From Halostella pelagica (GTDB taxonomy: Archaea > Halobacteriota > Halobacteria > Halobacteriales > Natronoarchaeaceae), in the NCBI GenBank assembly GCA_005954745.1, contig CP040678.1, forward strand, positions 1,116,001 to 1,180,000: 64,000 nt of DNA, given 5' to 3'. The notes below the pieces were generated by a model. That model searched no databases, had not been told where the DNA came from, and was given only the letters and a program-made list of their open reading frames with translations. Every line of letters starts with the position of its first letter. The stretch's first letter is position 1. The position numbers were made by a program, and so were the translations under genes. Shown one piece after another: positions 8,047 to 53,415 of this stretch.

Positions 8047-8402
8047 TGTCCGCCGGAGGACGCTTCGCGCCCTCCGAGCCTTCGCTCACTTCGTTCGCGA
8101 AGACGCCAACGAGCGCCGGCGGCGCTCGTTCCAGGCCCGCCAGTTTGTGCGGTCCTCGCGGTTGCTCGGACACGCTCCGAGCGCCTGCCTTTCCCCGTCC
8201 ACTGACCGCACTCACTTCGTTCGCGCAGGTCAGTGCGGCCGCGTTGCAATAGTCGTGGTATCGTCTGAGTACCTCACTCTCGCGTATCAATACGCTCGAA
8301 CCAGCACCGGGCCGTAATCACGAGGATCGCAGGCGATAGCTCTCCGTCTGTACCCCCTCACAGTTAACCATCCGCTCGTCGTCCTGCGTGTGGGGTGGAC
8401 CA
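8047..8402. repeat. Intergenic region with a modular hairpin repeat, copy 1
   Basis: This 356-base gap holds no convincing gene. It contains TTCGC...GCGAA (8081-8101), a perfect ten-base stem AACGAGCGCC/GGCGCTCGTT (8108-8130), and ACTGACC/GGTCAGT (8201-8234). The block at 8169-8205, read on the minus strand, matches 22628-22662 closely (GGACGGGGAA-GGCAGG, then CTCGGAGCGTGTC). The last 100 bases lead to the DUF892 gene and include AGTTAACC (8362-8369), a possible TATA element. Confidence 0.6.
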
Positions 8403-51782: not shown

Positions 51783-52193
51783 CTACCGCGGGCGGAAGCC
51801 GAGGAACCGCTCCGTCCCCGCCTCCGACCGGGCGGTCGTCAGTTCGACTGGAAGGCCTTCTTCTACGTTGTCCGGGTCTATATTTCGGATCTGTCCCGTG
51901 ACACGTACAGCTCCGAACCGAGCGATGGCAGTGACGTACGGCGTGTCCTCGCTGAACGACGGCGTCGCAACGTGTGTGACGGTGTACGTTTCGATCTCGC
52001 CGGACTCGGGCAACGGCGTCTCCGTCAGGTCGTCGGTGCCGCAGTCGGGACAGACCCGCCGCGGCGGAACGGAGCCGTGACCGTTCGCACACTCCAGATA
52101 GTATCCCGATCCGTCCTCGACCGCGTCCAGCAGGTCGTCGTAGCCATCGTCGCGAACCCCGGTTCCGGCCGAGTGAGACGATTCGTCGCTCAT
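51783..52193 (-). CDS. DUF35-type zinc-ribbon and OB-fold protein, thiolase partner
   Basis: The 136-residue protein has a helical start (GYDDLLDAVEDGSGYYLEC), a zinc ribbon (Cys with GHGSVPPRRVCPDCGTDDL) and an OB fold (GEIETYTVTHVATPSF to FRPR). Archaeal DUF35 proteins bind thiolases and pass acyl-CoA intermediates. The thiolase gene is directly upstream on the same strand. Normally these genes overlap at ATGA; here a 59-base duplication separates them while leaving both intact. Confidence 0.9.
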   Translation of the reverse strand: MSDESSHSAGTGVRDDGYDDLLDAVEDGSGYYLECANGHGSVPPRRVCPDCGTDDLTETPLPESGEIETYTVTHVATPSFSEDTPYVTAIARFGAVRVTGQIRNIDPDNVEEGLPVELTTARSEAGTERFLGFRPR

Positions 52194-52264
52194 GCGACCA
52201 CCTCCGGAGTCGCGCTCCGGCGTACTCGCATTCGGTCACTTCGTTCGCTCATGCGACCACCTCC
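52187..52264. repeat. 19-base direct repeats around a hairpin element at the thiolase/DUF35 junction
   Basis: CGCTCATGCGACCACCTCC occurs at 52187-52205 and at 52246-52264. The 40 bases between include CGGAGTCGCGCTCCG (hairpin) and GGTCACTTCGTTCG, the reverse complement of the CGAACGAAGTGA element seen near 2870, 8086 and 8213. The first copy holds the DUF35 start codon, the second the thiolase stop. This looks like an element insertion with target duplication. Confidence 0.65.
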
Positions 52265-53415
52265 ATCACGTGAACCAGGCAACTCGCGACCGTGCCGCCC
52301 GCGTTGTGAGCCAGTCCGACCTCGGCGTCGGCCACGGCGTCGCTGTTGACGTGGTCGCCCCGTAGCAGTTCGGTGATCTCCGCCACCTGTGACGTTCCCG
52401 TCGCGCCGACGGGGTGACCCTTCGCCTTCAGGCCGCCCGAGAGGTTAACCGGAACGTCGCCTTCGGCGGTCGTCTCCCCGCGGCGGGCCGCACCGATTCC
52501 CTCGCCCACCTCGTAGAAGCCGAGCGACTCCAGCGCGAGCACTTCCGCGATGGTGAAGCAGTCGTGGACCTCCGCGAAATCGACGTCGTCGGGGCCGATC
52601 CCCGCGTCGGCGTACGCCTCCTCGGCGGCGCGGTTGGACGCCGGCGTGCGCGCCAGATACTTGCGGTCCTGCAACGCCATGTCGTCGCCACCCTGCCCCG
52701 TTCCGGTGATTGCGACGGGCGCGTCGACGCCGTTTTCCTCAGCGTACTCGTCGCTGACCAGCACCAACGCGCTCGCGCCGTCGCTGATCGGACAGGAGTC
52801 GTAGAGGCCGAGCGGCTCGGAAACGGGCGGTGCCTCTAACACGTCGGAGACGTCGATCCGACGCTGATACTGCGCGTGTTCGTTACCCATCGCGTGGTCG
52901 TGGTTTTTCACGGCGACGTGAGCCAGGTCCGTCCGGTCCCCTCCGTACTCGTCGAAGTACGCTTTCGCCATGAGGGCGTACGCTCCGGGGAACGTCATCC
53001 CCGAGCGGACCTCCCACAGTTCGTCCGCGGCGATGGCGAGCGCCTCCGTCGCGCCGGCCGTGCCGAGATTGGTCATCCGCTCCGCACCGCCTACGAGGAT
53101 AACGTCCTCCTCATTGTTCCGGATGTCCTTGACGGCGGAACGGAGTGCGGCACCGCTGGAGGCACAGGCACTCTCGTAGCGCGTCGACGGTGCCCGCACT
53201 CCCGCCGCTTCGGCCATCAGCGGCCCCTGGTGACCCTGGCGTTCGGAGAGTTCTCCCATGAAGTTCCCGTATCGGACCGATTCGATGTCCGCCCGCGGCA
53301 CGTCCGCGTCGGCGAACGCTTCGGTGCTGGCTGCGCCGAAGAGGTCGCGACCCGTCCGACTCGGTTCCTCCCCGAACTCGGTCAACCCTACGCCGGCCAC
53401 TCGTACCTCGGTCAT
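52249..53415 (-). CDS. Thiolase-family protein (SCP-x-like acetyl-CoA acyltransferase)
   Basis: The 388-residue protein has the active-site Cys in TRYESACASSGAALRSAVKDI. FAEVHDCFTIAEVLALESLGF carries the His/Cys region, and LNLSGGLKAKGHPVGATGTSQV-like text (VNLSGGLKAKGHPVGATG) is the C-terminal signature. It condenses or cleaves acyl-CoA; archaeal members with DUF35 partners often make acetoacetyl-CoA for isoprenoids. It is first in a two-gene run with the DUF35 gene. Confidence 0.92.
   Translation of the reverse strand: MTEVRVAGVGLTEFGEEPSRTGRDLFGAASTEAFADADVPRADIESVRYGNFMGELSERQGHQGPLMAEAAGVRAPSTRYESACASSGAALRSAVKDIRNNEEDVILVGGAERMTNLGTAGATEALAIAADELWEVRSGMTFPGAYALMAKAYFDEYGGDRTDLAHVAVKNHDHAMGNEHAQYQRRIDVSDVLEAPPVSEPLGLYDSCPISDGASALVLVSDEYAEENGVDAPVAITGTGQGGDDMALQDRKYLARTPASNRAAEEAYADAGIGPDDVDFAEVHDCFTIAEVLALESLGFYEVGEGIGAARRGETTAEGDVPVNLSGGLKAKGHPVGATGTSQVAEITELLRGDHVNSDAVADAEVGLAHNAGGTVASCLVHVMEVVA

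Follow-up and report, generated by a model that had tools for sequence, protein, structure and literature searches.

Dispersed hairpin elements at Shine-Dalgarno sequences of overlapping gene pairs in haloarchaea, with a putative ribosome-relay micro-ORF

In Halostella pelagica, the minus strand of the window (the whole 64,000-nucleotide stretch analyzed here) carries a thiolase gene followed by a gene for a DUF35-type protein, and the junction between the two contains a direct repeat with hairpin-forming sequence between its copies. This raises the question of what has entered the junction, and how the two genes tolerate it. The exact repeat, given as 19 bases in an initial annotation made from the sequence alone, is real but 20 nt long (minus strand, 52264-52245 and 52205-52186; sequence GGAGGTGGTCGCATGAGCG(A), reading TCGCTCATGCGACCACCTCC on the plus strand) and has a period of 59, leaving 39-40 nt between the copies. 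The pair covers the thiolase/DUF35 overlap, and the full unit with both repeats comprises 79 nt. The features of the junction are:

52249..53415, minus strand: upstream gene, thiolase, 388 aa (ORF list; Pfam Thiolase_C_1/Thiolase_N)
52245..52264, minus strand: left direct repeat GGAGGTGGTCGCATGAGCGA, with Shine-Dalgarno (SD) sequence GGAGGTG and ATGA overlap; the TCGCATGAGCGA portion is element-type (repeat comparison)
52225..52257, minus strand: hairpin 1, arms GTCGCAT ... ATGCGAG, tandem G.A mismatches, GAA tip (covariation)
52199..52257, minus strand: 59-nt repeat unit GTCGCATGAG...CTCCGGAGGTG, inserted after GGAGGTG (exact occupied/empty comparison)
52190..52252, minus strand: micro-ORF MSERSDRMRVRRSATPEVVA with stop; its start overlaps the thiolase stop and its stop the DUF35 start, by ATGA both times
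52204..52220, minus strand: hairpin 2, CCGGAG CGCGA CTCCGG, extending into the downstream SD (6/6 pairs with double changes across copies)
52186..52205, minus strand: right direct repeat GGAGGTGGTCGCATGAGCGA, SD and DUF35 gene start (repeat comparison)
51783..52193, minus strand: downstream gene, DUF35/ChsH2-type OB-fold protein, 136 aa (ORF list; Pfam PF01796)

Both flanking reading frames are whole (thiolase 53415-52249, DUF35 52193-51783), as initially annotated, and the final thiolase codons GAG GTG GTC GCA TGA fall inside the left repeat, the gene ending in ...GGAGGTGGTCGCATGA. Two features were absent from that annotation, namely the micro-ORF of 20 codons, which is open between the repeats and would encode the 20-residue peptide ATGAGCGAACGAAGTGACCGAATGCGAGTACGCCGGAGCGCGACTCCGGAGGTGGTCGCATGA, and the joint recurrence of the repeats and the middle sequence at other genes. 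Each end of the element has the ATGA/GTGA/TGATG overlap with an SD that marks termination-reinitiation junctions between co-directional genes. In NCBI annotations of relatives, the thiolase ends exactly in one of the two repeats and the OB-fold gene begins exactly in the other, and the micro-ORF is unannotated. A scan of 51900-52600 with the Rfam 15 covariance models gave nothing at E<=1.

When the region was compared with relatives by BLAST, the whole 79 nt, including both repeats, was matched at C1:3049561 of the same genome (91% identical), where one flanking gene shows a weak ssb-like OB-fold match and the other encodes 502 aa (the ssb/RPA-like junction), and also at different junctions in other genera. 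From 13 copies we built a covariance model, which found matches in 40 of the 145 genomes sampled across the class (E<=1e-5) and in 32 of 121 genomes from the family of Natribaculum breve (E<=1e-8). The strong matches collapsed to 74 arrays in at least 49 haloarchaeal genomes, with one to five units each; by the model's count 60 arrays hold one unit, 12 hold two, and one each holds three and five, one Natribaculum breve array counted as two holding three. Units are 50-65 nt long, most commonly 59, and genomes carry one to seven copies. A phylum-wide search at reduced sensitivity returned matches only within the same order. Phages gave no match, so a phage origin was rejected, and the plasmid matches were megaplasmid thiolase or ABC operons. 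We found no paper on the motif or on such elements in haloarchaea.

Most of the targets are pairs of subunit genes, among them thiolase/DUF35, ETF subunits, aconitase halves, GcvP halves, ABC ATPase/permease, EIIA/HPr and the ribosomal proteins L18e/L13. Among arrays with both flanking genes, thiolase/DUF35 and its paralogues account for ~60%, so that many copies may share descent and the counts are not independent; this preference may reflect retention by selection or a good target. A third, weaker copy in the window genome (L052 1501-1573; G000:C1:2050509) is flanked by genes for a 4Fe-4S dicluster subunit and for a subunit of ethylbenzene-dehydrogenase type; it has a repeat (GGTGTTCGAC) and a micro-ORF (MRAKSRSPERSSGGVRQ) of its own. 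In G045 (L033), the region from thiolase end to DUF35 start apparently contains similar hairpins in a longer array that has diverged.

Where the thiolase/DUF35 junction is empty, as in many species, the two genes simply overlap (e.g., CTGGAGGTGGCAGAATGAGCG), and in most sampled species this junction has neither the element nor an element-type scar. Within its genus, only the window genome is occupied at the ssb/RPA-like junction, which is an empty ATGA overlap in four congeners and in nearly all of 15 further genomes (e.g., GAGGAGGTGGGAGCATGAGCGAGAG); these comparisons identify the insertion there as a lineage-specific gain. The empty sites in congeners, which the initial annotation had proposed to look for, bear out its view of an inserted, copied hairpin element. 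It had also held that the same duplicated junction in distant haloarchaea would refute its reading; such occupancy was found, but it is patchy, and the evidence for mobility, mainly from the ssb/RPA-like junction, stands. Part of the patchiness could be due to vertical inheritance followed by precise deletion between the direct repeats.

The cleanest occupied/empty pair, G488 versus Natrinema versiforme, has a 59-nt insert (GTCGCATGAGCG...CTCTGGAGGTG) that follows GGAGGTG and leaves the native ACGAACTGATGAGCGACTCC on its right undisturbed, and the unit boundary in the window was transferred from this pair. GGAGGTG(G) flanks the insert on both sides and is present once in empty sites; the element itself also ends with GGAGGTG. 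A left copy of element type (TCGC before the start) with a differing right copy was seen in 17 arrays and the reverse in five (P=0.017). Sequence comparison thus places the insertion point at the SD sequence GGAGGTG, and the occupied/empty pairs together with the left/right asymmetry restrict the certain duplication to the SD core GGAGGTG(G), only 7-8 nt. At the cleanest junctions the duplication is confined to GGAGGTG(G), and TCGCATGAGCGA in the left copy belongs to the element, so the 19 nt are not simply the target duplication that was first proposed. The longer identity in the window is made up of GGAGGTG(G), the common start context GCATGAGCG and two matching bases, TC, that are either native or the product of homogenisation. 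Both repeats fit their own locus better than they fit shuffled partners, and the inner arm agrees with the left repeat of its own copy, in a test where a few copies were misparsed by the script and shared ancestry inflates the result.

An intact reading-frame relay was found in 68 of the 74 arrays (64 overlapping stop/start chains and four in-frame fusions), in a search whose model was built from ATGA-containing copies and thus favours ATGA ends, though not flanking long ORFs; automatic reading gave no intact relay in the other six. The start-to-start distance is 2 mod 3 in 48 of 57 single-unit arrays, spread over six lengths (50, 53, 59, 62, 65, and 101 nt). Across the family the micro-ORF has 17-22 codons, and in G430 five 20-codon micro-ORFs follow each other consecutively with the relay intact. 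A conserved peptide as the function was rejected, as the peptide sequence is not the same in all length classes and the reading frame within hairpin 2 shifts; only openness and overlap are kept.

We consider it likely, with a probability of about 0.68, that the junction holds a copy of a haloarchaeal element that is dispersed, lacks a transposase, carries a ribosome-relay micro-cistron and inserts at the SD of overlapping gene pairs. Such an element would always enter in the same orientation, at the GGAGGTG of gene pairs that overlap and are presumably coupled in translation. It would supply an in-phase stop for the upstream gene, an overlapping start, the micro-ORF of 17-22 codons, another GGAGGTG, and a further stop that overlaps the start of the downstream gene. 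A ribosome ending the first gene could then reinitiate at once on the micro-ORF, terminate, and reinitiate on the second gene, and translation of the micro-ORF would melt the hairpins masking the downstream SD and start. As the needs of the junction would be restored, the insert may be 'transparent' and could persist between subunit genes, even those for ribosomal proteins. In Haloferax (H. volcanii), a stop-to-start distance of 22-23 nt abolishes reinitiation (PMC10666635), so a 59-nt insert without a relay would be expected to uncouple the pair. From this loss of termination-reinitiation over a ~20 nt gap, taken with the intact relay, we infer a mobile, translationally transparent element. 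Spread would proceed by a copying process, microhomology template switching or gene conversion, from one SD-flanked site to another, without a dedicated transposase. The two strong window-genome copies are mutual nearest neighbours (91%), closer to each other than to the same-junction copies of G002/G003; in general, copies at different junctions of a genome resemble each other little more than other copies do (median 0.69 vs 0.66), and recent intragenomic copying is thus clear only for the window genome. Tentatively, at slightly less than even odds, we suggest a class of selfish or domesticated DNA with the SD as target and a 'ribosome relay' micro-cistron that keeps translation coupled as cargo, copied transposase-free between SD-flanked sites.

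The element encodes no transposase, in agreement with the initial annotation. REP-RAYT elements, too, are short, dispersed and hairpin-forming, with no transposase encoded. An unlikely alternative is a classical MITE or REP-like palindromic element moved in trans (e.g., by Y1 IS200/IS605 or RAYT) with a target duplication of 7-8 nt or 19 nt, the micro-ORF being a by-product of the sites tolerated. Hairpins, dispersed copies, tandem arrays and insertion after a fixed short sequence would all suit such an origin, and the right end carries the target's GGAGGTG, as site-specific single-strand transposition might give. However, a search for Y1 transposase (PF01797) gave no match in G000 (the window genome), G002, G003, or G035, all of which carry copies, and a Y1 transposase as mover was rejected on these grounds. 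Fixed terminal inverted repeats were not found, the arms varying by locus and pairing internally; in addition, copy number is very low (1-7) and the frame geometry very regular. The element resembles MITEs (reviewed in PMC10969869) in being short, hairpin-forming, dispersed and free of its own transposase, and differs from them and from REP-RAYT elements in the lack of fixed-sequence terminal inverted repeats and of a matching transposase in the PF01797 search, and in having the SD as target.

The consensus of hairpin 1 is GTCGCAT-GA-GC-GA-AC-GAA-GT-GA-GC-GA-ATGCGAC, with CGAACGAAGTGA (52247-52236 in the window) as its tip. Base pairing is supported by covariation, with double-sided changes in 10 of 17 pairs over both hairpins; none of 500 shuffles reached 10, and slid controls collapsed. 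The middle arm can pair alternatively with the left or the right repeat, the left pairing being better preserved and the right one broken where the right copy is native. The SD and start are predicted to be less accessible at occupied than at empty junctions (P=0.002). A translational attenuator selected for stoichiometry at thiolase/DUF35-like junctions, mostly vertical and repeatedly lost by direct-repeat recombination, would account for hairpins that covary, exclude one another and cover both start sites, for the lowered predicted accessibility and for the strong thiolase/DUF35 preference, including paralogues in one genome. We nevertheless regard such an RNA regulatory element as quite improbable, given that most sampled species have the same junction without element or element-type scar, that the ssb/RPA-like junction shows a lineage-specific gain, and that the targets are diverse and unrelated.

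The initial annotation had grouped the element with the genome's other CGAACGAAGTGA hairpins, a grouping that did not hold. Of 13 genomic copies of this 12-mer, only that at thiolase/DUF35 has a long flanking repeat; the others have 0-10 nt and are mostly tips of different hairpins, and CGAACGAAGTGA was rejected as a family signature. In haloarchaea it is a hairpin tip of general occurrence, accompanied by tandem G.A mismatches. Exact copies at 2869-2880, 8086-8097, and 8212-8223 are tips of different hairpins with locus-specific arms (e.g., GGAATG..CATTCC, GCACTGACC..GGTCAGTG-type). A second, longer repeat family in the window genome (GGGCCTGG...hairpins...GGACAT..AAAGGGCG; several copies, in L003, L006, L011, and L012, around 1500) contains the same tip motif. 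Weaker model matches or motif copies were also seen close to or directly adjoining genes for tRNAs (Pro, Arg, Leu, Glu) in L108 (1513-2005), L105, L118, and L010, some of them flanked by direct repeats particular to the locus (e.g., GGCGGTCCCAT, present on either side in L108); these are possibly a tRNA-associated branch of the same architecture.

At orthologous-looking loci, Natribaculum luteum has one unit, against two, two, and three units at three loci of Natribaculum breve. Together with a derived tip shared by two units on a N. breve plasmid, these differences indicate that units recombine and homogenise. Plain local tandem duplication of the 19-20 nt overlap around unrelated intervening sequence, with no element, would fit such local changes in unit number but is already refuted by the dispersed copies, in which the 40 nt between the repeats show homology across genera and unrelated junctions, and describes unit expansion only.

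Among known systems, coupling of genes by termination-reinitiation has been described for ATGA overlaps (Huber et al. 2019, PMC6728339; 2023, PMC10666635), and the host junctions are overlaps of just this type, with an SD and often with subunit genes on either side; here, a dispersed element adds a complete extra mini-cistron and duplicates the overlap. Rickettsia palindromic elements are likewise small palindromic repeats whose insertion in coding DNA keeps frames, but they are ~150 bp long and fused in frame inside proteins (PMC10969869), whereas the present element occupies the space between two genes with a micro-ORF of its own that has an SD and stop/start overlaps, forming a separate ORF chain in 64 of 74 arrays and an in-frame fusion in only four. 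Pneumococcal BOX elements share a modular repeat of variable unit number and can supply stop codons and ORFs in operons; their ORFs are without good SD, relay geometry is not described for them, they can exceed 500 bp and they are not SD-targeted (PMC3049150).

The family adds a set of unannotated ORFs of 17-22 codons, and is a warning that gene-finding tools miss them. Its natural series of 0, 1, 2, 3, and 5 units at the same kind of junction offers test material for archaeal termination-reinitiation. Judged from sequence, the element can probably occupy essential operons without breaking them, through a ribosome hop via the mini-gene. It would thus represent a route for DNA into the tightest places of a compact genome, the stop/start overlaps of subunit genes, with both proteins left intact and, probably, their coupling as well.
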